A DNA stretch of 64,000 nt, from contig NZ_CP047946.1 of NCBI RefSeq assembly GCF_014279655.1, positions 930,001 to 994,000 on the forward strand, in the 5' to 3' direction. This document shows positions 23,382-47,078 of this stretch, in pieces. How positions within the stretch are numbered: position 1 is the stretch's first letter; the number at the start of each line of letters is the position of its first letter. The DNA comes from Synechococcus sp. ROS8604. Lineage in GTDB: Bacteria; Cyanobacteriota; Cyanobacteriia; PCC-6307; Cyanobiaceae. The position numbers and the translations under genes are program-made. Below the pieces are notes generated by a model, which saw only the letters and a program-made list of their open reading frames with translations, did no database searches and was not told the origin of the DNA.

Positions 23382-23445
23382 GCTCCGTGGCGGTGTATGC
23401 TTCGCCACGACAGCGAACAGGCTTGCGGGTCTTGTAGCTGTTGAT

Positions 23446-23518
23446 GGGGCCATAGCTCAGCTGGTAGAGCACCTGCATGGCATGCAGGGGGTCAGCGGTT
23501 CGAATCCGCTTGGCTCCA
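23446..23518 (+). tRNA. tRNA-Ala (anticodon GGC)
   Basis: A 73-nt cloverleaf: acceptor GGGGCCA/TGGCTCC with one G-U pair, D-arm with AGCTCAGCTGGTAGAGC, anticodon stem CCTGC/GCAGG around loop ATGGCAT, T-loop GTTCGAATC, discriminator A. CCA is not encoded beyond the discriminator. From 23476 on, the gene is the left attachment site of a tandem island array. Confidence 0.95.
23476..23518 (+). repeat. att copy 1 (within tRNA-Ala)
   Basis: 43 bp from the anticodon loop to the discriminator base, identical to copies at 34023-34065 and 46474-46516. It is followed by TTGAG. Confidence 0.95.
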
Positions 23519-23548
23519 TTGAGATCTCACTCCCTGAGACTGGTGAGT

Positions 23549-32589: not shown

Positions 32590-33861
32590 CTAAGTGATTG
32601 TTTCTAGGGATTTAATCGCAGCATCAACTGCGATTTTTGTAGAGGCAGTGTCAGTCCATTGGCCGTAATGGCGAATGTGGGTTCGTAAGTCATGCCCCAT
32701 CATCCACGCAGTGTCTCTTAAGGGAACTGGCTGGGGATAATACTTCGCTGATCTCCATGCATAGCCATGCCTTAGGCAATAGGGGGTTAGTTCAGGATTT
32801 TTCTGTTTCAGCGTTTGCCAGGTTGGGTTTCGATCGAGGTATTGGCGGAAGGTATGTCCGCATGCCTTGTAGGCGTCTGGTTCGAGATTTCTGATGCTTT
32901 TTGGGAGCCTCACCAATCCGCTGGCATACAGCTGAACGAGTCGGGCACCTTCGCCTGGTAGCTCTTTTAGCGGTAGCTCCACGGCATTCCTTGGTGGTTT
33001 TGGTTCAGCGGCACTGTGAGCGTTTCGCTTTACGTTGCCGACCATCAACTCGCCATCTTCAACGTTCAGAACCATTAGTTCGGCTGGTCGAAGACCAAAC
33101 AAGCCAACGAGACCAACGGCGAGCCTTAATTCAGGATCTGACTCCAATCCATTCAGCAGGACTAAAAGTTCTTCGGGTTTGATCGGTGTTGTTGGTTTGG
33201 GCGTCGATTGCCGCTTACCGATTAGCTCCTTCATGTCGTCGCATTCCAATGGCAACCACTTTTTGTTCGCTCCGCATTTGTTGACGGCAAACCTTAGGAA
33301 CCGTGCGACGTCCAACATGTTGCGTTTTCGCCCTGATGATCCTGGCTCCATCTCCATCAGGTGTTTTCTGGCATAGAGCCGCATCAATCCACCGCCATCG
33401 TGTGCGGCACCACTTCGAGCAGTTATTAGATCCACGGCTCTATTGATTCGATATTCCTCGTGTTCGGCGTAGTTCGTGGCTTTTACGGTTCCTGAACCAA
33501 CCCGACTGTCTTTGTAGCGTCCTTGGACTTCGCTCCAGTTCAGGTCGACACCAGTGACTTCAGGACTATTTCTGACCAACTGATATGCGTCAGTCATTCC
33601 AATGTTGAGTTGATCCATTCGGTCGACGAGCTCACCAATCAGGTTGAGAACCTTGCGATGACTTCCTCGCGTGAAGAGCAGATCGGTCGATATGAATTGC
33701 GTTCGACCGTGGCGAGCATTGCCAGCTTCAGCCTTTCCAATTTTGAAGCGACCGTATTGATCTTTGAGGACCCACCCAGGTCCGTAGTCACCTTTGACGC
33801 CTTGCCGGAGTGTTTTTAACCACTGCTGCGCCTGAGCCATGAGTCTCTTCTTGGCGTGCAA
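32590..33861 (-). CDS. Tyrosine integrase of element A
   Basis: 423 residues. A long N-terminal arm-binding and core-binding part is followed by the catalytic domain: first Arg in GLFGLRPAELM, then RHGYAWR (box II HxxR-like), GHDLRTH, and the nucleophile Tyr in HYGQW. It is clearly homologous to the element B integrase, with many identical stretches (NVKRN, TFRQYLDR, LRHGYAWR, GHDLRTH). The start is 160 bases from the att repeat it should act on, and candidate arm sites lie between. Confidence 0.9.
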   Translation of the reverse strand: MHAKKRLMAQAQQWLKTLRQGVKGDYGPGWVLKDQYGRFKIGKAEAGNARHGRTQFISTDLLFTRGSHRKVLNLIGELVDRMDQLNIGMTDAYQLVRNSPEVTGVDLNWSEVQGRYKDSRVGSGTVKATNYAEHEEYRINRAVDLITARSGAAHDGGGLMRLYARKHLMEMEPGSSGRKRNMLDVARFLRFAVNKCGANKKWLPLECDDMKELIGKRQSTPKPTTPIKPEELLVLLNGLESDPELRLAVGLVGLFGLRPAELMVLNVEDGELMVGNVKRNAHSAAEPKPPRNAVELPLKELPGEGARLVQLYASGLVRLPKSIRNLEPDAYKACGHTFRQYLDRNPTWQTLKQKNPELTPYCLRHGYAWRSAKYYPQPVPLRDTAWMMGHDLRTHIRHYGQWTDTASTKIAVDAAIKSLETIT

Positions 33862-33908: not shown

Positions 33909-34022
33909 TGCTTTTTCTTGCTGCAGCAGGCTGTGGCAGGTTGTCGCGTCTTCCCTAAGAAAGCCTATTTTCACTCAGGTTTTTGCTGTTGTCGCAACGC
34001 TTCTCAGGTTCTGCTGGCTTTT

Positions 34023-34065
34023 CATGGCATGCAGGGGGTCAGCGGTTCGAATCCGCTTGGCTCCA
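34023..34065 (+). repeat. att copy 2 between elements A and B
   Basis: Identical to the tRNA-Ala 3' end over 43 bp. There is no 5' half, so this is not a tRNA gene. It shares CTCCACT at its edge with copy 3. Confidence 0.95.
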
Positions 34066-34100
34066 CTTCAAGAATAAAACTTGTCACTGACAGGTTTTTT

Positions 34101-34125
34101 GGCGGCACGTAAGAGCCGCTTTTTT
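34101..34125 (+). terminator. Hairpin terminator at the left end of element B
   Basis: GCGGC pairs with GCCGC across ACGTAAGA, followed by six T. Confidence 0.65.
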
Positions 34126-34505
34126 AATGCCGAAAAAGCTAAATATCATTTTTGATGCGCAAAATGATGCACAAAAATTTGGTGTCCCGTATGGCCGCGG
34201 CTGTTTCCTTCGGTATCTCATGCGAGCTGACTCTGCCCAGCGCGTGGTTGGTTGTTCTGTCATCTCTGGAATCGATCTGGATGGCTTCGCACTTGTGCTG
34301 AGGGCTATGTGGCGCGCCTCATTCCCCGTGTTAAGCAACTTGCTTCTTCGAGAAGTAGCTGCTGCGGGTCACCAGGGTGGCTGTGTTTGCTTGGGCGATA
34401 TGGCGGGTTTGGAAGACCAACGGCTGAAGCAATTGGGCTGAACTGGACTCATCCTTTCGAGTGGTTGGGTCTTACCCCAATGGGCAATCTGGCCAAACTG
34501 CTCTG
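34126..34505. other. Possible degenerate coding stretch, left end of element B
   Basis: Open frames exist on both strands, the longest plus-strand one at 34127-34441, but none has convincing codon structure or a recognisable motif. The frame ending near 34506 has PFEWLGLTPMGNLAKLL, which looks protein-like, so a broken gene may be present. Confidence 0.3.
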
Positions 34506-34763
34506 ATGTGGCAGCAGCAGCCTGATTACGCGCGATACAAGGAGAAGTCCAACAGTGAAGGCTGGCTGTTGAACAGACAAGAGGGAACGCTCATCCAGAT
34601 CAAACCCGATGCAGCAACGCAACATGCCCAGTTCGTATTGGTGAGCTACTACCGTTTGTCAGCACGGCTGAAGAAACCTGTACGGCAGCAGCAAATGCTC
34701 CGTTACCTAGGCATCATGCGCACAACAGATTCAGTTCAATGCTCCGATCGCTTTCAGTCTTAA
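34506..34763 (+). CDS. Hypothetical protein (weak)
   Basis: 85 residues from ATG 34506, with a hydrophilic, plausible composition (YARYKEKSNSEGWLLNRQEG, FVLVSYYRLSARLKK). It overlaps the lipoprotein gene start by 25 bases. No family recognised. Confidence 0.35.
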   Translation: MWQQQPDYARYKEKSNSEGWLLNRQEGTLIQIKPDAATQHAQFVLVSYYRLSARLKKPVRQQQMLRYLGIMRTTDSVQCSDRFQS

Positions 34764-34930
34764 CTTTGGTCATTTGCTTAAGCGTTATCTCGCTTTTGAC
34801 TGCTTGCTCGAATGATGGCATTGCATCGTTGAATCCTAGTGTTGATCGGGAAGCGGGTTTGGTTGAGCTGGGCACAATGGATCAAGCACCAAACATGGAT
34901 CAAGAATCACTCAACTTTGATCGCCTATAG
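34739..34930 (+). CDS. Small lipoprotein
   Basis: 63 residues. The N-terminal signal ends in the lipobox LLTAC, so it should be lipid-anchored. The mature part is short and acidic (DREAGLVELGTMDQ). Function unknown. Confidence 0.6.
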   Translation: MLRSLSVLTLVICLSVISLLTACSNDGIASLNPSVDREAGLVELGTMDQAPNMDQESLNFDRL

Positions 34931-35088
34931 CCAATTGATCTGAGGTGGTGTCACGAACCAGTTGATGCGTTATGCCGACAAGTCTTGGCTGGCACTCGGC
35001 ATTGAAGAGATTTAGAGATGATCTTTATTAGCTAGTCCGAGAATGATGAAAAGCATTATTTAACTTCGCCCGGTGAAGCGATATTAAT

Positions 35089-35244
35089 TCAGCCGATCCA
35101 AATTCCAAGCAGGATTCCGATGATCAAAGCCGAGAACCAGACAAGGGCTCCCATCTGGTATTCGCTAAGACCAAGCTTTTTCTTGATCCAGAAATAAGCA
35201 TCACGATCTGCGCCAACGATTGACTTTAAGGGGTTTTTAGCCAT
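35089..35244 (-). CDS. Small single-span membrane protein
   Basis: 51 residues from the ATG giving MAKNPLKSIVGADRDAYFW; an upstream start adds 11 residues. A single C-terminal membrane helix (VWFSALIIGILLGIWIG) follows a basic amphipathic part. No family recognised. Confidence 0.55.
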   Translation of the reverse strand: MAKNPLKSIVGADRDAYFWIKKKLGLSEYQMGALVWFSALIIGILLGIWIG

Positions 35245-35321
35245 TTGATTTAAGTGCAGTCGTTCTGATTTTTGCAAAGGAACCTATTTGATGCAAGAGG
35301 TAATGATCAGCACTGTCATCC

Positions 35322-35390
35322 TTCGCAGCTAGAACCAGCGTGTCTACAAGGGCACCCTCGGTTCGAGTCCCGCACTCTTCGCTTCGCAAC
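35322..35390 (+). other. tRNA 3'-end-like fragment
   Basis: The stretch contains GGTTCGAGTCCCGC, a T-loop-like sequence, preceded by an anticodon-arm-like and variable region, but the T-stem pairs imperfectly and no 5' half exists. It may be a relic attachment site from another tRNA, or chance. Confidence 0.3.
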
Positions 35391-35517
35391 CAAGTAATCC
35401 CCGCCACAAGCTGGGTTTTTTAATGCTTACTGAATAGCAGCAAAGCTGAAACTGCCTACTGCAGCGTGCAGCAGCAGCACAAGCAAAGGCATCATTACGG
35501 CATCTATTAACGCTCCA

Positions 35518-36514
35518 TGCTGCGTCGTCTGTCCCTGGGGCTGCTGCTTCTGCCATCTCTGTTGCTGCCCTACCTGCCATTGCGCAAGAGGGCAGTGCTG
35601 ATGACCTTGGGGTGATGAGCATCAGCCTCAAGGATGTGGTCAAACCCACCTTTGGTTTTCAAGGAGCACTGCAAGGAGCAGGAACACCGAACCAAGCCGG
35701 TATTGGTGGCTTCCTGCCTCTCTCTGTTGGCGACAACAGCGTCTGGTTTCTTGATGTCCTCGCTAACGCTAATTTCGCTGATTACGAAAACAACAGCAGC
35801 CTCATCAACACCACTGTTGCTGGCACCACGATCAGCACCTCATCAAGGCTTGGTTATCGCTGGCTGAATAGTGACCGCAGTTGGATGTACGGGCTGAATG
35901 CTGGTTATGACAGCCGCCCGATGGCTACAGGTGATGCCGATACAGGGGTATCCGTCACAGATAAGAGCAGCGTCTTCTTCCAGCAGGTGGCTGTGAATGC
36001 AGAAGCGGTCTCTGATAGCTGGAATTTCAATGCCTATGCCTTAGTGCCTGTTGGTGAGAAAGAAGCTCAACTCAACAGCGTTTATCAAGGCGGTTCACTC
36101 AACACCTATGGGCTTGATGTGGGTTACTTCATCACTCCAGTGGTGAATGCGTCTGTTGGGTATTACTACCAAAATGGTGATCTAGGCACGGCTGATGGTT
36201 CTGGCGTACTCGGACGCTTGGCTTATGAAATGACCAGTGGCGTCACAGCAGGGGTCAATCTCTCCTACGACGAAGCATTCGATACAAGAGTTTCAGCTGA
36301 TCTTGAAGTTCGATTTGGTGGTGCACGTACAACAGCGCAACGCAAAGAAGTTCAACAACACCCTGTGATCAATGCCTTAACATCAACACCAAGCAACAGG
36401 GATGTGAGGGTGCACGATGCAAATGCCTTCGATTTTGCGCGAGCTATACGTAGACGATTCCCCAAGGTACTGTGTGATGGCAAAATCGGATTGTGCGACG
36501 ATATCGGGGTTTGA
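35518..36514 (+). pseudogene. Outer-membrane beta-barrel gene, copy 3, frameshifted in the signal peptide
   Basis: ATG 35518 begins MLRRLSLGLL as in copies 1 and 2. One base is then missing in the CTGCTGCTTCTG stretch near 35547, so the frame ends at a TGA after about 32 codons. From about 35560 the right frame is open to TGA 36512-36514 and matches the paralogues along the whole barrel (SSRLGYRWLNSDRSWMYGLN, ASVGYYYQNGDLG, RDVRVHD). An internal ATG at 35612 could start a product without a signal peptide, which would be useless for an outer-membrane protein. Copy 3 lies on the strand opposite to copies 1 and 2 and in the neighbouring element. Confidence 0.8.
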
Positions 36515-36647
36515 TCAACGAGCTCATAAATCAAAATAGAATCAGGTTAACTCCCAAAGCCATTGTCAAAGCAAGAGCTTTTTACTTCTATAATCACTGA
36601 CTAACCATTGCTAAATGTCATCCAGTGCCTGGCACCAATTAATACTT

Positions 36648-36711
36648 AGCCCCGCCACGAGCGGGGTTTTTAATGCTTGCTGAATAGCAGCAAAGCTGAA
36701 ACTGCCTTACG
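36648..36711 (+). repeat. Orphan copy of the barrel-gene leader
   Basis: Hairpin CCCCGCCACGAGCGGGG with a T run, then the conserved leader with TGAATAGCAGCAAAGCTGAA, as found before all three barrel genes. It breaks off after CTGCCTT and no barrel gene follows. Confidence 0.8.
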
Positions 36712-36720
36712 TGAACGTTT

Positions 36721-37254
36721 TCACCGGCAGAGCTGAAAGCGAACAATGCTGCGGGTCAGCCCTTTTTCGGACCAGTTGGGCATCACCCTCCAAGGGGTGT
36801 GCACCGTAAGCATGTCGCCGTCGATCGTGAAAAATCGGGTTTGTTCGGTACCAACCCACTCGGGGTTCCAGGCCACATCTACCTCGGTGATCCAGCGGTC
36901 ACTCTCGAGGCGGTAGATGCCGGTGTAGGCGATCATGCTGCTCAGCAGGGCCGATCGCTCTTCGGCGTTAGAACCCGGTTTGCGCCCCTCAGCCGAGAGC
37001 ATGAAGGAGAGACGGCCTTCAGGAGTGAAGATCACATAGCCAGTGGGCTGATCGCCCATCGGCGCGAATGTGTCGCCGCTGGACTGTTGCTCGACGTCGT
37101 AGCTCAACAGCTGCCAGGCGCCATGAACGGAGGGGGAAGTAATGGCTTGAGTGGACTGAACCGAACTGAAGGTCACAACTGAGCCTGTTTCTTTGCGGCA
37201 ACCTACCGATCGTGATCCAGCTTCGCGAGCCTCAATCGAGGCATTCCTGTGCAA
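36721..37254 (-). CDS. Lipocalin-like domain protein
   Basis: 177 residues; the true start may be 25-30 codons downstream because the first part is irregular. The core (HGAWQLLSYDVEQ, GYVIFTPEGRLSFMLSA, YTGIYRLESDRWITEVDVA) fits the small lipocalin-like_5 family, a beta-barrel that could bind a hydrophobic ligand. The orphan barrel leader lies just past its 3' end. Confidence 0.65.
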   Translation of the reverse strand: MHRNASIEAREAGSRSVGCRKETGSVVTFSSVQSTQAITSPSVHGAWQLLSYDVEQQSSGDTFAPMGDQPTGYVIFTPEGRLSFMLSAEGRKPGSNAEERSALLSSMIAYTGIYRLESDRWITEVDVAWNPEWVGTEQTRFFTIDGDMLTVHTPWRVMPNWSEKGLTRSIVRFQLCR

Positions 37255-37400
37255 TAAATGCCATGGAATGGCGATCCGGTAACAACAGCAACGAAATCAA
37301 TCAGGGGCCGGAGCCCGGAAGGGCGCTGATGTATAGCTATCAATCTCCCGACTGAATAGTCACTAGACCACTACGGTTGCGGGAAACTTAGACTCTTGCT

Positions 37401-37826
37401 ATGAAAGCAGTATTTGGCTTTTGGGCTTTGTCAAATCAACGTGTAGCACTTGCAATCCTTGGTGGCTTCATTCTCGCAGGGCAAGTACATGCGAAACCAA
37501 TGAACAAGAATTTGAATCTTATGTCAGTTAATAACGAGGCAGACATGAGAAGAGCCATTTGTATGGATGCTGGCGCAACTTCAAAACTTCTGATAGCAAA
37601 GATGACAGTAGTGAAGAATGTGAAAAGCGTAAAGTGTAAATCCGGTGAAGCTCTGATTAGATACAGAGAAGACGCCTCCGATCCAGGGCACGTGTTGGTT
37701 AATATCGACCCTCCTAATGGCAATAGCAAGGGTTTAGACTGTGACGGTAAAGCTGATATTGGGCTTCACTATATAGGCTTAAACTGTTTAGAGTCAAGTT
37801 TAGAGTCTACTTCGCATTCTAAATAG
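37401..37826 (+). CDS. Exported hypothetical protein
   Basis: 141 residues with a signal-peptide-like N-terminus (core near 15-30, likely cut after VHA). Four cysteines and a Lys-rich mature part. Low G+C compared with the core genome. A strong terminator follows. Function unknown. Confidence 0.65.
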   Translation: MKAVFGFWALSNQRVALAILGGFILAGQVHAKPMNKNLNLMSVNNEADMRRAICMDAGATSKLLIAKMTVVKNVKSVKCKSGEALIRYREDASDPGHVLVNIDPPNGNSKGLDCDGKADIGLHYIGLNCLESSLESTSHSK

Positions 37827-37862
37827 GCGATTAAAATATAATCATCTATATGTTTTGGTATT

Positions 37863-37887
37863 GCCCCGCTATCAGCGGGGTTTTTTT
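37863..37887 (+). terminator. Rho-independent terminator
   Basis: CCCCGCT-ATC-AGCGGGG followed by seven T, 37 bases after the upstream gene. Confidence 0.85.
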
Positions 37888-37892
37888 ATTGC

Positions 37893-38042
37893 ATGGTTGA
37901 CCCATCACTGCTGCATCAGTTACCCGTCAGCGGAGAGGGGCGGATTCGAGCTCACGGTGCCCTTGCGTCCCTGATTTATCTCGTTATTTTTGTCTCGTCG
38001 GAAGCGTTGCGTTTGGCGCACCACCGGCAGCACAACAATTAA
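37893..38042 (+). CDS. Small possible membrane protein
   Basis: 49 residues from ATG 37893. A hydrophobic middle (LASLIYLVIFVSS) could span the membrane. It starts right after a terminator and ends 8 bases before the next gene. Weak call without a family. Confidence 0.35.
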   Translation: MVDPSLLHQLPVSGEGRIRAHGALASLIYLVIFVSSEALRLAHHRQHNN

Positions 38043-38050
38043 AAAACAGC

Positions 38051-38542
38051 ATGACGACTCCCCTTAAAGCGCAGCGGTATCTCCTGCGTGATGGCAAGTT
38101 CATCACCGCTTCAATCCGACTTGATCCAGCTCACATCTACCGATACGCCTGCCAAAACGGTTTGGTGATCCTTGCTCTGCTCTCAGCTCAGGTCGAGAGG
38201 TTATTGCTTCGGTTGATCCAACAACAAGCAGAAGAATCCTCTGCGCTGAGGCAAGAACCAGCACAGCCAACCAAGGCGCCCCAGCTGAGCATGCGCCGGC
38301 TGACGCTGGGAATTGTTAGCCAGTCGACGCTTCTGGGGCTTGTGCTCGATCTAGCCCCAGATCAACCCAACTGGCACAACGGCTTGAGTCTCAGATTTTT
38401 GGACATGAGCCAAGGCCAAATTGGACAAGAATCGCCGCACCAATCTCACGCGATGAGACGGGCAAACACCACCGCGACAAGGCCAACTGGCACAGCAAGA
38501 GCCTGTGTCACTGTGGAGTCCGCAGTGGCGCTGGCGTCCTAA
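38051..38542 (+). CDS. Hypothetical protein
   Basis: 163 residues with a hydrophobic stretch near 38-48 and a Gln-rich middle. The C-terminal third is Ser/Thr/Arg-rich and may not be genuine. No family recognised. Its end overlaps a converging gene by 4 bases. Confidence 0.4.
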   Translation: MTTPLKAQRYLLRDGKFITASIRLDPAHIYRYACQNGLVILALLSAQVERLLLRLIQQQAEESSALRQEPAQPTKAPQLSMRRLTLGIVSQSTLLGLVLDLAPDQPNWHNGLSLRFLDMSQGQIGQESPHQSHAMRRANTTATRPTGTARACVTVESAVALAS

Positions 38543-38823
38543 GGGAAAAGGAATAGTTCTATTGGGCTTTTGAAGGTCCACCAAGGTGCGACAGAGTTGC
38601 CCTGATCTTTCAGACAACGCTTCATCGCTTGCTTCAATTTGGGCGATCCGCTGGGAAAGCTGTACCGGAAGTTCTCTTCGTCGCAGGTGTCCCTTGAAGT
38701 GGCAATAGCTCTAGCCACTGCAAGCTCACGCATGAGCTGTTTCCCACGGATGACGGCATAGGCGCCGTAACTAAAGGAAAAGCCTGTAGTGAGGATCACA
38801 GCACCGCAAGCACCGCGAACCAT
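38539..38823 (-). CDS. Hypothetical membrane-anchored or exported protein
   Basis: 94 residues. The N-terminal 25 residues are hydrophobic (signal or anchor), followed by a charged part with two Cys (DTCDEENFRYSFPSGSP, KRCLKDQG). The pattern suggests an exported small protein. No family recognised. Confidence 0.5.
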   Translation of the reverse strand: MVRGACGAVILTTGFSFSYGAYAVIRGKQLMRELAVARAIATSRDTCDEENFRYSFPSGSPKLKQAMKRCLKDQGNSVAPWWTFKSPIELFLFP

Positions 38824-38949
38824 CTATTTAGTGATGTTGTCCATGCCTCAAGGCTGACGCAGTCGCTGTCAACAAGCGCAGCCTGCACGCGCGCAGAGGC
38901 GGTTAAAAGCGGCATTTCGCCACGAGATATGGCGCACTATCGGCCACTC

Positions 38950-39399
38950 CTAGGGGGGGGAAGTCGCAATATGCGAGTGCTCTAGGGGGGGTAGGCGCTT
39001 GAGATAGGACGCAAGCCCCAAATCCTTTCCTGCTTTTAGGAGCCGCGCACGGCGCCTCAGGCTGTTGCGTTCTTTCTTGGCTTGAATCTCCACGCAACGT
39101 TCAAAACACACCATTGCTTTCGAGTGCGACAGATGCTTTTGAGGGTTTCGCTTCGGCTTGCGTTTGGCGTCTTTCGGTGGCTTGCTGCTGATCTGAACCG
39201 CTGGGAGCTGGCTTCTGCTCAGGCTGAAACCGTTCTCTTTTGCGACCGCCCAAAAACTCGCTGCGTTGCGGGTGGTGGTGCTGGCCAGTACCTGCCGCGC
39301 AGCATGTGGTGTCGGCCAGCGGTTCCCGAGGAGGTTTAGGGCTTCAGCGTCTGGATTGGCCGCGCCTGCCTCCCTTAGCGCCGCTGAACACCCGCACAA
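38950..39399 (-). CDS. Basic hypothetical protein
   Basis: 149 residues, strongly basic. Residues about 20-55 (ALNLLGNRWPTPHAARQVL) look folded, and the C-terminal half is Lys/Arg-rich (KRKPKRNPQKH, NSLRRRARLL), which suggests nucleic-acid binding. Overlapping plus-strand frames look less protein-like. No family recognised. Confidence 0.45.
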   Translation of the reverse strand: MCGCSAALREAGAANPDAEALNLLGNRWPTPHAARQVLASTTTRNAASFWAVAKENGFSLSRSQLPAVQISSKPPKDAKRKPKRNPQKHLSHSKAMVCFERCVEIQAKKERNSLRRRARLLKAGKDLGLASYLKRLPPLEHSHIATSPP

Positions 39400-39448
39400 T
39401 GCGTTTCTGTCACTTTCATAGGTTCCTTGCCCTCCTGTCCTGCTTGGG

Positions 39449-39937
39449 ATGTATCGGGCTGCATCGCGGATCTCTTCAATCGTGCGGGGCGCGTGGCATG
39501 GATGCCTATTGGATGCCTATGGCACCAACTACTTGTCGCCTGTTCCGCAAAGGGATGCCGTTGAAGTCGGCAAAATCCTCCGGCGCTTGGGGTATGTCAA
39601 AGACAAACATCAGCTCCGTAAGAACGGCAAAAAGCTCAAACGCATGTGGCGTCGTGTTGACGCCTCAAGTGCCTCAACGGTTAGCCAACCACCTGAGGCG
39701 GGGCAAACCCCAACAGGCGGAAGCGAAGACAGCAATTCGCCTCATGTCTCTAGTTCTTTGATTGAAAGCGAACAGATACAAGAGGAGGAGCAGATCATCG
39801 CTACCGCGTTGTTGGGGAAAACACCTGAGGCACCTGAGGCGCTGTCCGTGGGCAGCAGCTTTGACGTGCCTAATCACAGACATAGGGGGTTGATCAACAA
39901 TGACGAAAGAGCCGATAGTTGGGACGCTTGGGACTGA
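39449..39937 (+). pseudogene. C-terminal fragment of a replication helicase/primase (possible)
   Basis: The first 70 codons include VEVGKILRRLGYVKDKHQ and KLKRMWRR, the form of the winged-helix C-terminus of VirE/D5-type element helicases. A low-complexity Glu/Ser-rich tail follows. No ATPase motifs are found upstream, so the gene is probably truncated. It may be the relic of element B's replication module. Confidence 0.45.
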
Positions 39938-39967
39938 AATCCAAGTGCCTGACTAGGTTTTTTCACA

Positions 39968-40183
39968 TTGTTAAAGCGCCGTATTTCCCAGGGAAAAACG
40001 CTAGTGCTCTCTCCACGCGACATAGACCGCCTCAAGACTCGAACTAGAGCTCTGAGGCAGTTAGCCCTTCCACCTGATCTGAAGATTCGGATTTTTGTGG
40101 AAGGGGAAGTCATCAAAGAAATCCCGTCTAATGATCACAGGACCATGGACGTGATTATTGAAAACCAGCGTGAATTGATTTAG
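39968..40183 (+). CDS. Small hypothetical protein
   Basis: 71 residues (LSPRDIDRLKTRTRALRQL, LKIRIFVEGEVIKEIPS), hydrophilic and well composed. It follows the helicase fragment by 30 bases and converges with the small integrase. No family recognised. Confidence 0.5.
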   Translation: MLKRRISQGKTLVLSPRDIDRLKTRTRALRQLALPPDLKIRIFVEGEVIKEIPSNDHRTMDVIIENQRELI

Positions 40184-40197
40184 GCCCATTCATGGGG

Positions 40198-40857
40198 TTA
40201 AGCACCATTCATGACAGCGTGATTCTTCCCCTGATCTGAGACATCGATGTAACGAGCCAATATCCCTAAATCCACATGACCAGAGATTGCTTGAATCGCC
40301 CTTATAGGGACTCTATTTGCACTCGAAGCAGTCAGAACACTCCGTCTGAACGAATGCGTTGAAATTCCTTCAAAGCCGCATTCAATGGCAGCTTTTCTGA
40401 GCGCATGATCGAAACCAAGACGTGTCAAATGCTCACCAGGATTACGACCTGGGAACAACCAAGCATCTGGATCATTATTTGGCTTTGATACCTGCTTCCA
40501 AGTTGCTAGCTCGGCAGCAAGTTGAGGATGAATTGGAACGGTTCGAGTCTTCTTGGCAATTTTTGTTGTTGGAGCGGTCAAGAGCATTTGGTTTTCTAGG
40601 ACATACTTCCACTTGAGCTGCAATCCTTCGGACACCCGAGCAGCAGTGCGTCTCAGCAAGTGAGCCAAAACACGATGGTTGTCAGGCAAAGCGAGAAGAA
40701 GCAGATCAAGCTCAGCAGTCGAGAGAGTACGTGCTCGACCGAAGCAATCTTTCTTCATTTTTCTATTTAGTTGCCAAGGTTCTGAGGCCATGCCGAAACT
40801 GGTATGTCCTCTTTTGAATAGTAGAGCACTAGATCTGTTCTCGGACAGCAACTGCAT
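40198..40857 (-). CDS. Small tyrosine recombinase, second integrase in element B
   Basis: Up to 219 residues; the start is probably about 22-33 codons further in (MASEPWQL or MKKDCFGRA). Only the catalytic domain is present: Arg in LRRTAARVSEGLQL, HSFRR, GHVDLG and Tyr in ARYIDVSD. All catalytic residues appear intact. It differs from the two large integrases and resembles short XerD-like proteins, which may invert or resolve DNA or come from a third element. Confidence 0.75.
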   Translation of the reverse strand: MQLLSENRSSALLFKRGHTSFGMASEPWQLNRKMKKDCFGRARTLSTAELDLLLLALPDNHRVLAHLLRRTAARVSEGLQLKWKYVLENQMLLTAPTTKIAKKTRTVPIHPQLAAELATWKQVSKPNNDPDAWLFPGRNPGEHLTRLGFDHALRKAAIECGFEGISTHSFRRSVLTASSANRVPIRAIQAISGHVDLGILARYIDVSDQGKNHAVMNGA

Positions 40858-41194
40858 CAGATTGGCTGACAGTATTTCTTATCTAAATTGCAATCATGAT
40901 GATTATCTTTATCTTCGATAATGCTTATGCTTGGCAGCTTTAGTATCAAGACTGTTATTATCAGTAACTTGGATAAGCAGGAGTTAGAGTTGCGATTATA
41001 GCTTATGTATTCGAAGCACCCAGGACTTGTTTAAACAACATAGATAGCTGAATAAGTATTTGTCAAGGAGTGGGGGTAGTGGTTGGATGTCATGGCAAAG
41101 GTGAAGCTATGAAAACCAACTATGACTTGGGGATAACTCATAGTGTAATTATGGCTGAGATTTGATAGGATTGGGATAAGTTCTTGATCCAATC
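40858..41194. other. AT-rich intergenic stretch
   Basis: About 340 bases rich in A and T, with several TTATC/GATAA-like short repeats and no supported gene. It must contain the promoter of the small integrase. Confidence 0.4.
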
Positions 41195-41428
41195 TTGGAC
41201 AGCGACTGGAATCTTTCGGCACAAGATTGGACGGTTATGAGCCGTTGCAATCGTGCTGCGGAGATGCTGTTCCCGTACAGCAGCCGCCAAGCCGAAGCTT
41301 GGTCTCTTTGGGCTTTTAAACAGTTTCGAATGGCTGGACAAAGCCCTGAGGAATTGAGAGACATTCGCTGTCCAAGGATAAAAGAACTGCATCAACGTCG
41401 TCCACCTAAAACATTTCCTTCCCGATGA
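41195..41428 (+). CDS. Small hypothetical protein
   Basis: 77 residues, Trp- and Arg-rich (DWNLSAQDWTVMSR, AEAWSLWAFKQFRM). It overlaps the next gene by 4 bases (ATGA), which supports it as real. No family recognised. Confidence 0.5.
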   Translation: MDSDWNLSAQDWTVMSRCNRAAEMLFPYSSRQAEAWSLWAFKQFRMAGQSPEELRDIRCPRIKELHQRRPPKTFPSR

Positions 41429-41912
41429 GTAATGCTGCTGCCTTTGCTGGGTTTTGGGTACGTAATTTCCCAGAACAAACTTGTCCTCCTGTTCCTGAAC
41501 AGTTGAGTGAGTTGGGATTGACCGCTCAGATGGCGATGCAGTCAGATGCACCAGAGCTGTATACGGCGATGTCTGGCGGCAAGAGCGGCTACCGGCTGCC
41601 TGCTGATGGACGGTGCGTTTGGAGTCAGGGCAGCTGGTTCCAGGGGATGCAGAGGTCTTACGTGCTGCTGGTCTTGAGGTTCAAGCTCAGCAATGTGCGC
41701 GGTTACGCCAAGCGCAAACAGACCAAGCGATGGCAGATCACATTGCGCATAGTCGAGCTGTTTACCAACAAGAGATGGAGCGGACTTCTGCTTGGCAAGA
41801 AAAGGGAGTTCTTGAGCGGATGGGTCACGAACCAATGTGTCCTCAGCAAATTGCTGCGAATCAACGAAATGGTGCGGGACAAGTTGGCAGGTGCGACCGC
41901 AAAGCTCGTTGA
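41425..41912 (+). pseudogene. Frameshifted hypothetical gene
   Basis: The first about 60 codons (MSNAAAFAGFWVRNFPEQ) look coding. Near 41610 the good frame shifts: the plus-one frame continues with LESGQLVPGDAEVL, QTDQAMADHIAHSRAVYQQE and ERMGHEPMCPQQIAAN, which is protein-like, to TGA 41910-41912. The original frame runs on to 41982 but turns basic and irregular. No family recognised. Confidence 0.5.
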
Positions 41913-42225
41913 TGCAACACCCCGCATTGCGGACATGTTGATTGCTGTGGCACTGGACCCAAGATCCAAGCCATATAGATGATTGATTTCGCACACCGAT
42001 ACCAAACGTGCGCGCGGCTTTCTCACGTCGGCAAAAGGCGGAAGGTCTTTGGTCCGGTTGCAGGTGTAACGACTGCGACTCAGCTTTCAATCACTCCCAC
42101 TGGTATGAGTCAACACGTTGATCCGGCGGGCAGTTTCAGTTTTGCAAGAGGTTTGTGGGTGATAGTAAACCCCACTTATGGCGTGAACTGTTCAATATTT
42201 TGTCGTGAAATCGATCACACGTTGT

Positions 42226-43803
42226 TTAAACTCTCAGCTCCATCCGACCAGCAAAAGACTTTAGAGATTGATCTATCTCATGGGCGCTACGAATGCCGGC
42301 ATATACGTAATGGTCAGGACGCACCAAGACACCAATGCATCCTGATTCCTGAAGCCAAGACTTTAGGACTCCAAAGGACTCAGTGACCTCCCAAATGAAC
42401 CCATCTCCCTCAGAAACTGGGGCATGAGCATCCCGCATTAAGACAATCGCAACTCCGATGGCCCTAGCCGTAAGACTAATGAGTTCGATTTGCTCTTGAT
42501 TGATGGCGTCTGCCAGGAGAATGATTCGAAAACAAGGCTCCATCAAATCGTCCATAAGAACTTTGCTTTTGCAAGAGTTCGAAACCAGAGGCTGGGGAAG
42601 AACGGTGCCGGCCAGGGGGGAAGTCCCTTCGATAAAACCATCTTCCAAGGGTGCAATCAGATTTTCACGCAAGGTTACCTTTGTATGACCACCATTCTCC
42701 GCGAGAATTTGGTCATCTCTCTGTCTTGCCTTATCCGGATCAAGCTCAGTGATAATAAGTCCACACTCAATCGTAATTTTGGTTGTGCTCACTACATTTG
42801 GGCGCCTCTCTTGGACATAAGTATTGAGGAGGTCTGGGGTGGCTGAACCTGATAGGACACTGTTCAGTTTCCAAGCGAGATTGCCGGCATCTCTCAATCC
42901 CTGGCACATTCCTTGGCCAAGGAATGGAGGAGTTTGATGTGCACTATCACCTGCCAAAAACACGCGCGAATCTTGCCACTGTTCTGCCACAAGCGCATGA
43001 AAGCGATAAGAAGCAGCACGCCATATTTCGGCTTGACCCGGCTTGAGCCAAGGTGCCATCAACTCCCATAAATAATCATCAGAGAGAGCATCTTCGAGAT
43101 TGTCACCTGGGATTACCATAAACTCCCAGCGCCGATGATTGCCCGGACAACAGATCATGGTGCATGGCCTATTTGGATTGCAATATTGCACATTTACCTG
43201 CGGCAGCGCGTCAATAAATTCATCACCTACAATCATATCTACTACGATCCACGGCTCATTGTAATTGAGATTTTCGACGCCACAGTCCATTTGATGCCGG
43301 ATCGGGCTAGATGCGCCATCGCAGCCAATCAAATAGCGCGCATCGTAATCAAAAAATTTATCGTCGGGAGCCTTTGCTTTAATCGTTACACTCGTTGCGG
43401 ACTGTTGGTAATCTAAAAAATCATTGCCCAGCAGAACATTGATCGTAGGCATTAGCTCATTAGCGTCCCTGAGCACCGTCTCGAGATACGGCTGATCACA
43501 CGTGTAGTGAGGACTCCAAGTCAGTGGATAGGGCTCGGGAATGTGCTCAAGCCTTTGAATAACCCGACCGCTGGCATCAATATAAATTTCATCGCGAAAG
43601 GACTCAACATACGGAACTAAATCCTTGGTAATACCGATGCGCTGAAATAATCGCATGGCATCATGGTCAAACCCCACAGCCCTTGGCTTAGGATAAATAC
43701 CGGTAGATTTTTCGAAGACAACAACACTCAAGCCTAGCTTTCCAAGCAATCCAGCTAAAGTGGCACCAACTGGACCATAGCCGACAATGGCAACGTCATA
43801 CAT
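42226..43803 (-). CDS. FAD-dependent aromatic hydroxylase, MhpA-like
   Basis: 525 residues from the ATG giving MYDVAIVGYGPVG; a start 7 codons earlier is less likely. It has the Rossmann GxGxxG (residues 8-13), the DG motif in YLIGCDGASSP, and the GD motif in VFLAGDSAHQTPPFLGQGM, all hallmarks of class A flavoprotein monooxygenases. The nearest type is 3-(3-hydroxyphenyl)propionate hydroxylase MhpA, which adds a hydroxyl to a phenolic ring using NAD(P)H and O2. No ring-cleavage partner is seen nearby, so the substrate is open. Unusual cargo for a marine cyanobacterium and likely acquired from a heterotroph. Confidence 0.8.
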   Translation of the reverse strand: MYDVAIVGYGPVGATLAGLLGKLGLSVVVFEKSTGIYPKPRAVGFDHDAMRLFQRIGITKDLVPYVESFRDEIYIDASGRVIQRLEHIPEPYPLTWSPHYTCDQPYLETVLRDANELMPTINVLLGNDFLDYQQSATSVTIKAKAPDDKFFDYDARYLIGCDGASSPIRHQMDCGVENLNYNEPWIVVDMIVGDEFIDALPQVNVQYCNPNRPCTMICCPGNHRRWEFMVIPGDNLEDALSDDYLWELMAPWLKPGQAEIWRAASYRFHALVAEQWQDSRVFLAGDSAHQTPPFLGQGMCQGLRDAGNLAWKLNSVLSGSATPDLLNTYVQERRPNVVSTTKITIECGLIITELDPDKARQRDDQILAENGGHTKVTLRENLIAPLEDGFIEGTSPLAGTVLPQPLVSNSCKSKVLMDDLMEPCFRIILLADAINQEQIELISLTARAIGVAIVLMRDAHAPVSEGDGFIWEVTESFGVLKSWLQESGCIGVLVRPDHYVYAGIRSAHEIDQSLKSFAGRMELRV

Positions 43804-43824
43804 CTTGGGCTTTCTGAATAACAA

Positions 43825-44374
43825 GAATACTAGCAGGAGTTAACCGAAAAGAATTTACCCTGATCGGCCTCATGGATTGGTGGTGAATTGCCAGTTTTAA
43901 AGCATTTGCCGGCGATATTCGGGGTCGATTACATTATCCACGATGACAGGTGCTAGGCATAGGCAACCACGATCTCCCATCCCGACGCCCAAACGCGAGT
44001 GCACAAAGAACTTCCAGTAATTGGTGTATGTACAACGTGGCGCACAGCCCGTTTTCCTTTCACATTTGGGATTCTCTAATTGGGTCCATCGCGGTCTCCA
44101 GGCCTCCGTTTGTATTCAGAGAAAGGTTGGCTCGAGGCGCCAACAAATCGCACGTGACTCGGAACAACGAGGTCGGCGTGCGCTGATTGACGGCAGAATT
44201 GATACACGACGTCCGGTATTGGACTTGCAGGTGGTCGAAAACTCCGGGAAACATACCCCCACTGCGGCAGCCTTTTGCCAAATCCGACGCGGTGATTTTT
44301 CTTATGCGATTCCCCGTCGACTCCAGTTGCCCGTCAAATCTCTCGCTCTGTAATGAGCTCATCTTGACGATCTA
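43825..44374. other. Gene-free or decayed stretch upstream of the hydroxylase
   Basis: About 550 bases. Short minus-strand frames such as NYWKFFVHSRLGVGMGDRG look protein-like but have no proper start and are broken by stops and shifts. I think a former gene next to the hydroxylase has decayed, but I cannot identify it. Confidence 0.35.
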
Positions 44375-45025
44375 TCATTGACCTTTTATCTCAGTAATCG
44401 TCGAGACGCGGTTCTTAATAGGTTCACGTATGACGTCATCAGCGTGTGTCATTTCTTCATCAAATTTAAAGTCAAGGAGCTCCTCCGCCTTTGCACGCTC
44501 ACCAAGATCTCTGGCGCCCTTGTTTTTCTTGCCCTTGTGAATGAGCGCGCCCGTAATTATCTTTGAAATTTCCCTAAGGTGATCAATTTTTTCCTGGTAT
44601 TTTGACTCGTCCAGTTTTTCTAGACTAATGAATGGCTCGGTCTTGTCATCTGCGGTAACTGCTGCCCAGCTTACGTAAAATAGATTGCTTTCCTTGATGG
44701 TGTCAAGCAGGGAAAGATATAGATAGTCTTCAAACCTCTGCTGAAAATACCCAACTCTATATTTTGACTGCTTGGCGCGTATTTGCCGTACTTTGTCTGG
44801 TGTATATTTCCCAACTCTTTTTGTGCATCCTTCGTTTCCTTCTCTGAATTTTGAGTGAGCAAAATGCGGTGCTCTTTTTTCTCCTCTTTTTAAAAACACA
44901 TTAGCCCTGCATTCAGAGCACACGATCAAGTTTTTGCCGATCAACCATCCATCATCTCCATTCATCTGCAGGAATTCCTCCACGCTCATTGTTTCGAGCT
45001 TTACGAGAGAAAATGCATAGTCCAT
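44375..45025 (-). CDS. CoiA-like zinc-ribbon protein, possible nuclease or defence gene
   Basis: 216 residues. The N-terminal part VCSECRANVFLKRGEKR followed by PHFAH is the zinc-ribbon/HFAH signature of the competence protein CoiA family. A conserved GCTKR stretch and a helical middle (YFQQRFEDYLYLSLLD) come next, then a charged tail (KGKKNKGARDLGERAKAEE). The nuclease core of CoiA is not obvious. A+T-rich, beside the integrase, so probable element cargo. Confidence 0.6.
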   Translation of the reverse strand: MDYAFSLVKLETMSVEEFLQMNGDDGWLIGKNLIVCSECRANVFLKRGEKRAPHFAHSKFREGNEGCTKRVGKYTPDKVRQIRAKQSKYRVGYFQQRFEDYLYLSLLDTIKESNLFYVSWAAVTADDKTEPFISLEKLDESKYQEKIDHLREISKIITGALIHKGKKNKGARDLGERAKAEELLDFKFDEEMTHADDVIREPIKNRVSTITEIKGQ

Positions 45026-45061
45026 CTGTTGATTTTCCTACGACGTGCTGGTCGGCCACGT

Positions 45062-46297
45062 TTACGCTTCGATCAGTGTGCCAACCGCACGCAGAACTGA
45101 CTCTTTTACATCTTCATCTGTAGTCCACTGTCCGTAGTGTTTCGTATGCGTTCTTAGGTCATGTCCCATCAGCGCAGCAAGGTCGCGCATCGGTACAGCT
45201 TTGTCGTAATAACTAGCGCCCCGCCACGCGTATCCATGCCTGAGCCCATAAGGCTTCAGTCCTGGAGTTGATGCCACCAGGTTCTGCCAGTAGGGATGTC
45301 GATCCAGGTATTGCCGGAAGGTATCGCCACAAGCCTTCAGCCCTTTGGCATTCGTGATGGTGATTGGAAGCTTCACCAGTCCAGAGTCGTATAAATCAAG
45401 AATACGTTTGCCTTCCCCGGGAAGGTCTTTCAAATCCAACGGAAGCACTAAACGTGGAGGCTTTGGGTTACGGGCTGTCTTGCTGTTGCGTTTTACGTTC
45501 CCAACTTTGAGTTGGCCTTCATCAATGGACAGCATCATCAGCTCTGCCGGACGCAAGCCATAAAGGCCAACCAAAGCAACCGCCAACCTCAGCTGAGGCT
45601 TTTCAGCCAAAGAATTCAGCAAACTTAAGAGTTGCTCAGGCTTGATGGGAACGGTTGCTTTTGAGGCGGTTTCTCGCTGGCCAACAAACAAATCGGCGTC
45701 TTCACCAATGGGTGGCAACCACTGTTGTGGGGCACCGCATCGCTTGACGGCAAAGGTTAAAAAGCGGGCAACGTCAAGAAGATTCCGCTTACGGCCAGAG
45801 CCACCAGGAGCAACATTCGCCAGGTGTTGAAAGGCATAGGCACGGAATAGTGACGCACCATCGTGAGGGGCCTTCTTAGGCAAGGCCAAGAGCTTTAAAA
45901 CACGATTGACGCGGTAGCGCTCGTTGGAGTCGTAGTTGTCCTGGGTGACGTCACCGCTCACGACAACACGCAGCTGTTCATATCGTTTTGCGATGTCTTC
46001 CCAATCCGGTTGCCCCGGCGCTGAGTCAGGCGTGTGGGAAATCAGCTTGTAGGCATCACCAAGAGATAGTCCTAGAGACTCCATACGTTTTCTGACCTCA
46101 CTCAGCAGTGCGGTGAGCTTGGTCTGGCTTGAAGGGGCCCAGCTCAAGTGGGTTGTGACTGCCTGTCGTCGTTGACCTGGTGGAGCAAAACAAAGCTTGA
46201 TCCGACCTGACTGCTCTTCAATCAGCCAACCTTTTCCGTGCTCCCTGCGAAGCAGGTTTCGAACGTCGGTAATCCAGGTGGTTTTTGGCATGAACAC
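45062..46297 (-). CDS. Tyrosine integrase of element B
   Basis: 411 residues, same family as the element A integrase: Arg in GLYGLRPAELM, RHGYAWRGASYY, GHDLRTH and Tyr in HYGQW. The conserved stretch NVKRN and TFRQYLDR are shared with A. Its start lies 177 bases from att copy 3. The intervening DNA has different short repeats from element A's arm sites, so the two integrases may be specific to their own ends while using the same core. Confidence 0.9.
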   Translation of the reverse strand: MFMPKTTWITDVRNLLRREHGKGWLIEEQSGRIKLCFAPPGQRRQAVTTHLSWAPSSQTKLTALLSEVRKRMESLGLSLGDAYKLISHTPDSAPGQPDWEDIAKRYEQLRVVVSGDVTQDNYDSNERYRVNRVLKLLALPKKAPHDGASLFRAYAFQHLANVAPGGSGRKRNLLDVARFLTFAVKRCGAPQQWLPPIGEDADLFVGQRETASKATVPIKPEQLLSLLNSLAEKPQLRLAVALVGLYGLRPAELMMLSIDEGQLKVGNVKRNSKTARNPKPPRLVLPLDLKDLPGEGKRILDLYDSGLVKLPITITNAKGLKACGDTFRQYLDRHPYWQNLVASTPGLKPYGLRHGYAWRGASYYDKAVPMRDLAALMGHDLRTHTKHYGQWTTDEDVKESVLRAVGTLIEA

Positions 46298-46473
46298 CTG
46301 CTTGTTGTGCAGGGCGTCATCGACTTCCCCCTATCTTAGGGGAAAAACTAGGGGGAATCTGTTGCAAGCAGTCATGACTGGTTAGAAGCGTGAGACTGAC
46401 TTACCCTTGAAAACCTTTTGCAACAGCTAGTTTAGTCAGTAATCGCAGGGCTTCTCGTCTTGAAGCTCGCTTG

Positions 46474-46516
46474 CATGGCATGCAGGGGGTCAGCGGTTCG
46501 AATCCGCTTGGCTCCA
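46474..46516 (+). repeat. att copy 3, right end of the tandem array
   Basis: 43 bp identical to the tRNA-Ala 3' end; also shares the preceding TG with copy 1 and the following CT with copy 2. Core chromosomal genes resume after it. Confidence 0.95.
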
Positions 46517-46622
46517 CTAGGTTTTTCAGCTAGTGGCACTCCCCGAATCGTGTGAAACTTGGTGCAAGAAAGCGCAGACATCTGTGCTTCCTTGCATTCA
46601 ATTCAGCATTGCGGCTGAGTGC

Positions 46623-46940
46623 TTAGGCCATCTTTGCGAAGAGCCTTTTGTGATGGTCCACAACGTCTTGGCAACCGATCACAGGAGTGAAGTCCATCTC
46701 AATGCCGTGTTGAGCAAGCCAAGGAGCAAAAGGTTCAAAAATCTGAGCGTCACTTTCGGCTTTAAATAAACAGGTCACCCGACCAGCACCTGGTGCATGG
46801 ACGCGAAACAGCATCTCAAAGCCAGGGAAGCTATCGGCCTTGGCCATCTCCCCTGAATACCATAATTCACAAAAACTTTTATAGGCAGCGAGCTGACCTT
46901 CAATATCCGGAAAAGTACAGTCCGCGAGATACATTTGCAT
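46623..46940 (-). CDS. DUF3303-type protein
   Basis: 105 residues (PGAGRVTCLFKAESDAQIFE, FEPFAPWLAQHGIEMDFTPV), matching the small ferredoxin-like DUF3303 family. Cytoplasmic, function unknown. First core gene after the island array. Confidence 0.7.
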   Translation of the reverse strand: MQMYLADCTFPDIEGQLAAYKSFCELWYSGEMAKADSFPGFEMLFRVHAPGAGRVTCLFKAESDAQIFEPFAPWLAQHGIEMDFTPVIGCQDVVDHHKRLFAKMA

Positions 46941-47078
46941 GGTTGGCTAAAAATGAAGACATTCGTTTCCAAGCCACTGCCCATCGAAGATGCTGCTCAA
47001 GTCACCACTTACTGACCGCTCGTCTCAACCTCCGAGATATTGAGAGGTCCTGGACCTAGGGGATCCTTTTGATGCCAG

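Follow-up and report, generated by a model that had tools for sequence, protein, structure and literature searches.

CoiA-like proteins have been placed in the PD-(D/E)XK clan of Pfam (PMC1913061, in the part of that paper accessible to us), and the CoiA domain is named among the anti-phage defence proteins of an E. coli pangenome screen (PMC9519451, likewise in its accessible part). In the portions of the literature available, nothing was found on the CoiA-like gene analysed here or on a cross-phylum chimera. This gene lies on the minus strand at 44375-45025 of the 64,000-nt stretch of DNA under analysis (the window), which belongs to the single-contig genome of a cyanobacterium, probably a marine picocyanobacterium (2.88 Mb, 99.97% complete, 0.02% contamination). 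It was delimited by ORF calling, a CoiA_N match, and comparison with its two sources; it starts with ATG and keeps an open frame throughout its 216 aa. Judged from these comparisons, the data show that the ORF is composed of a cyanobacterial-family N-terminal part and a planctomycete-like C-terminus, with a visible zone where the two meet.

An earlier note on this DNA had described a CoiA C-x2-C...HFAH signature at the N-terminus of a 216-residue protein without an evident nuclease core, positioned beside the integrase of an integrative element, and all of this was borne out, with coordinates and motif correct. Pfam CoiA_N (PF25164) matched residues 35-59 (44849-44923, minus strand; E 3.8e-9, 36.3 bits against a cut-off of 26.3), and the alignment columns place the zinc ribbon at C36, C39, H54, and H57. 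When the window protein was aligned with six others from the phylum, the columns C36, C39, H54, F55, H57, C67, and R70 were invariant. A match to Pfam DUF7830 stayed below its cut-off. No nuclease domain was detected by Pfam, NCBIfam, PHROGs, or PADLOC; specifically, no Pfam or NCBIfam nuclease model, hence no PD-(D/E)XK part, appeared at E up to 5. NCBIfam had no match to the ORF, and PHROGs gave one weak unnamed family (E 0.067). Searching the PDB with the protein sequence returned two bacterioferritin matches, both with E >1, and AlphaFold2 on the single sequence gave a mean pLDDT of 34.2, too low for a fold search. The plasmid collection contained no DNA match, and among plasmid proteins there was one match, a Deinococcus CoiA zinc ribbon, over residues 32-90. 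The phage protein collection gave no match, scans of the viral contig collection yielded neither a match nor a confirmed relative, and Rfam over 34000-47000 of the window gave nothing at gathering score. With no catalytic domain detected, the remaining zinc ribbon could presumably at most bind nucleic acid.

The gene is located 36 nt downstream of a tyrosine integrase gene on the same strand (45062-46297, minus strand, 411 aa), which was identified by phrog_1 (E 1.1e-9) and Pfam Phage_integrase (E 2.6e-4, below cut-off). A tRNA-Ala(GGC) gene found by tRNA calling (23445-23519, plus strand) serves as integration site. Its 3' end recurs on the plus strand as 100% identical copies of 43 nt at 34023-34065 and 45 nt at 46472-46516, and the region 23445-46516 therefore carries two integrative elements, one behind the other, at a single tRNA-Ala gene: element A (~23.5-34.1 kb) and element B (~34.1-46.5 kb). 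The first copy marks the boundary of A and B and the second the right end of B, so that tRNA 3'-end repeats flank the integrase genes, as in tRNA-targeting integrative elements; each element has its integrase just within its right border. The element A integrase (32590-33861) had no Pfam match and was assigned by DNA similarity to two related loci (L031 and L032), whose ORFs at that place also match the element B integrase. Within element B there is a second integrase-type ORF (40198-40857, 219 aa, Pfam Phage_integrase E 2e-23), the shortest of the three. A query of 43830-46420 matched 4 of the 31 genomes of the genus, namely the window's own and three others; in these three the similarity is confined to the integrase part, and the rest of the 30 other genomes had no match. 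The slot at the side of the integrase varies, because L031 carries a T5orf172 protein in it, and L032 one with DUF3104; in a further locus (L033) the integrase has the opposite orientation and adjoins the tRNA.

The N-terminal part has one near relative. Querying 300 genomes of the family with the whole protein gave two matches, the window's own genome and a genome of another genus of the family (G267). DNA comparison showed that 44685-45043 (minus strand) is common to both, with 303 of 362 positions identical (84%). A frameshift and in-frame stops interrupt the G267 copy, which was recovered in two frame pieces, corresponding to residues 1-56 (79%) and 42-115 (70%). Over 108 pooled codons, from which stops and the frameshift were omitted, dN was 0.088 and dS 0.82 between the window and G267 (dN/dS 0.11), indicating selection on the N-terminal part during most of the period after the two copies diverged. 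DNA similarity to G267 ends near residue 119; farther on, 18 residues align again, and no relative is known for residues ~116-161. The broken copy (L019, 8123-8483 and 10192-10507) lies ~1.7 kb from a tmRNA gene, and tmRNA genes are another frequent site of integration.

More distant relatives share the zinc ribbon. In the phylum, 7 of 386 genomes matched at E <=1e-3, comprising the window's own and six with distant proteins that have the zinc ribbon and the stretch following it in common with the window protein. Alongside these six no defence genes were visible, as judged by the opening residues of the adjacent ORFs. When 400 family genomes were searched with a profile, nine matched: the window's own, G267, G198 with a distant relative in an open frame, and six with weak matches (E 2.2e-4 to 7.8e-4), which were taken as chance, having at least four stops each. 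In G198, a member of the window's family, the CoiA-like zinc-ribbon protein is the last of an operon of DUF3780, DUF1156-methylase, and PLD-helicase genes (L053, 224-8072) and begins 4 nt after the PLD-helicase gene. PADLOC recognised the three operon proteins (E 2.9e-230, 2.6e-35, and 7.6e-246). Speaking against a defence link, the CoiA-like protein itself was matched neither by PADLOC at 1e-5 nor by Pfam at 0.01.

At the other end of the protein, a scan of genome contigs found a single relative, on a contig (L004) of a Mariniblastus MAG. The DNA is identical at 234 of 255 nt (E 3e-101) over the last ~45 codons and on past the stop, and a second stretch, matching a second repeat copy, is identical at 79 of 85 nt and extends down to window position 44214. 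The planctomycete-like segment starts at about residue 172 of the ORF. It consists of a coding tail (44375-44512, minus strand; 15 differences in 138 nt from the planctomycete genome G300 by DNA comparison) and a 3' flank of 161 nt (44214-44374, minus strand, by DNA comparison), which includes an intergenic repeat of ~85 nt (44214-44298). In L004, the matching tail is the end of a 211-aa ORF, termed gene X here. The assignment of these contigs to planctomycetes follows the MAG name of L004 and the relatedness grouping of the genomes. Gene X occurs in 2 of the 199 genomes of the G300 family, G300 and G349, in the latter on a 69-kb contig; the window segment matches 7 of the 199, of which G300, G349, and G418 match over at least 76 nt and G312, G415, G454, and G482 over 21-48 nt only. 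Within the G300 genus, 2 of 28 genomes match the segment (G300 and G931). We rejected the possibility that L004 is cyanobacterial and misbinned, since gene X is found on the 69-kb G349 contig and G418 and G931 have the repeat as well. L004 also carries, at 1058-1954, a PDC-S02 candidate defence gene (PADLOC E 2.3e-99). No genome could be recognised as the planctomycete donor: the coding tail departs from that of G300 at 15 of 138 nt, and gene X is confined to 2 of 199 family genomes.

The non-coding part of the flank at 44266-44374 has 3 differences in 108 nt plus 3 gap columns, against 15 in 138 nt in the coding tail (p 0.024). Taken from the sequences, a flank that is better conserved than the coding tail is the reverse of expectation, and a single simple transfer does not explain it. 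For the tail, dN/dS was 0.27 between the window and G300 (44 codons) and 0.30 between G300 and G349 (43 codons). Decay is not demonstrated, since the ORF is open and the tail value resembles that between planctomycete tails.

The two similarities overlap at the junction. Residues 162-179 resemble the tail of the G267 copy (score 50), and the residues from 172 on resemble gene X (score 188); neither score was reached by any of 2000 shuffles. The overlap zone (44489-44512, minus strand) includes 'RDLGE'; the DNA there, CTTGGTGA, is common to the window and G300, and G267 has CTTGGCGA, one base different. The G267 tail reads on as '..LGETAEYWLTQNRKVIKIEALIDTEAPYKKA', and this piece had no Pfam match. 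Residues 115-172 were also tried as homologues of gene X, and the score of 35, equalled in 84 of 2000 shuffles, was not accepted.

On this evidence we consider it likely that the ORF is a cargo gene of the tRNA-Ala integrative element, the 3' end of which was replaced in frame, at a microhomology, by planctomycete-type DNA, with loss of its own C-terminus. The ancestral protein would have had a CoiA-type zinc ribbon followed by the middle part and by another C-terminus. A piece of planctomycete-type chromosomal DNA of ~0.3 kb, comprising the end of gene X and the intergenic repeat, would have been joined to it in frame at the short microhomology, so that the resulting ORF has a foreign tail of ~44 residues and its own C-terminal part is gone. 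Illegitimate recombination presumably caused the joint, and the direction of transfer was presumably from planctomycete to cyanobacterium. The product may be a remnant with little or no function, a label chosen because the C-terminus is lost and the only near relative is broken. The nuclease core is probably absent because the gene is a chimera in which the end was exchanged; by analogy with the architecture of CoiA, our guess would be that the lost C-terminus was the start of that core.

The same joint could also have given a product that is expressed and useful, that is, a young cross-phylum fusion gene in which both sources can still be recognised. This reading is conceivable but unlikely.

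It is rather unlikely that the gene is a working anti-phage or anti-element gene, in which a stand-alone zinc-ribbon protein binds foreign DNA and excludes competitors and the tail is irrelevant. The intact ORF directly behind an integrase, the purifying selection on the N-terminal part, the variable slot beside the related integrases (T5orf172 and DUF3104 proteins), and the place of the G198 relative behind a defence-type operon are consistent with such a function, as is the listing of a CoiA domain among E. coli anti-phage systems (PMC9519451, accessible part). Against it stand the foreign C-terminus, the broken state of the nearest relative in G267, the lack of a Pfam match in the G198 protein, and the single Deinococcus zinc ribbon as the sole relative from phages or plasmids. 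PADLOC matched DruB only weakly and only over the zinc ribbon of the window protein (38 and 73 residues, E 2.5e-4 and 9.3e-3), not over most of DruB. Matches of the five phylum relatives scanned were likewise DruB matches of zinc-ribbon length only, and among five window ORFs scanned there was no other Druantia protein. The suggestion of the earlier note that this is a stand-alone defence or DNA-uptake gene of a new type is not supported, given the planctomycete-like C-terminus, the broken G267 copy, and the CoiA anti-phage domain already present in the accessible part of the literature. The locus gives the appearance of a gene that was damaged or recently fused, and not of a new defence system.

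We also considered that the planctomycete segment was an artefact of assembly or contamination, in which DNA from a planctomycete in the same culture was attached to the cyanobacterial contig. Marine cyanobacterial cultures are often not axenic, the flank is identical to a planctomycete contig at 105 of 108 positions, and the segment is absent from the other 30 genomes of the genus. This origin is nonetheless quite improbable, as the genome is a single contig of high completeness and very low contamination, the overlap at the joint (~8-14 nt) is far below usual assembly overlaps, and the reading frame stays open across it. An assembly error at the joint itself, which is known from the assembled sequence alone, is possible.

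The ~85-nt repeat is present in G300, G349, G418, and G931. Copies lie between genes of Mariniblastus-like planctomycetes at L018 5601-5693, L062 2132-2224 and 5659-5743, L063 1669-1756, L064 3376-3468, L065 201-291, and L066 3943-4033. A 25-nt core pattern, allowing <=3 mismatches, was found in four of five genomes tested, once in the window genome and never in G267; its reversed control gave no sites. The tail could in principle be where an integron-type gene cassette ends, recombination site included, the joint then being made by an integron integrase and not by chance. The L004 repeat lies behind two plus-strand ORFs and shares their strand, a weak third copy is at 893, and the repeat occurs twice on one strand of a G931 contig (G931:C90). 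An integron integrase above cut-off was found in four of four repeat-bearing planctomycete genomes, a count that covers repeat-bearing genomes only and so has no background. The sites of TAACAA...GTTATC type adjoining the integron integrases of G931 and G418 (L079 and L080) presumably are attC-like, as they read by eye. Such a cassette is very improbable and was set aside: in four integron integrase loci the repeat model found nothing significant, the repeat has no stable fold and does not surpass its shuffles in folding, the sites beside the two integrases differ from it in kind, and the two cyanobacterial genomes have no integron integrase at E 1e-10.

If the joint is real, the locus offers a legible example of how a short piece of DNA from another phylum reshaped a coding gene, and both sources can be seen in it together with their meeting point. 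Exchange of the end would account for a CoiA signature without a nuclease. It also advises caution, in that orphan genes at the side of integrases should not be named new defence genes from a motif alone.

Compared with known systems, the window protein resembles DruB of Druantia weakly over its zinc ribbon but covers only 38-73 of the 477-552 profile positions. Its likeness to the E. coli CoiA-domain anti-phage system is one of domain name alone (PMC9519451, accessible part). With the CoiA_N proteins of the phylum (L021-L026; ORFs of 208, 257, 258, 428, 446, and 852 aa) it shares the zinc ligands, C67, and R70, invariant in all seven aligned sequences; they differ from it in being 20-26% identical and in having different C-termini of their own. 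With the CoiA competence protein (PF25164) it shares the C-x2-C...H-F-A-H zinc ribbon near the N-terminus, but it has no detected nuclease part and its C-terminus comes from another source. The CoiA domain in phage defence is already published (PMC9519451, accessible part), and the interesting part of this locus is the in-frame joint between two phyla.
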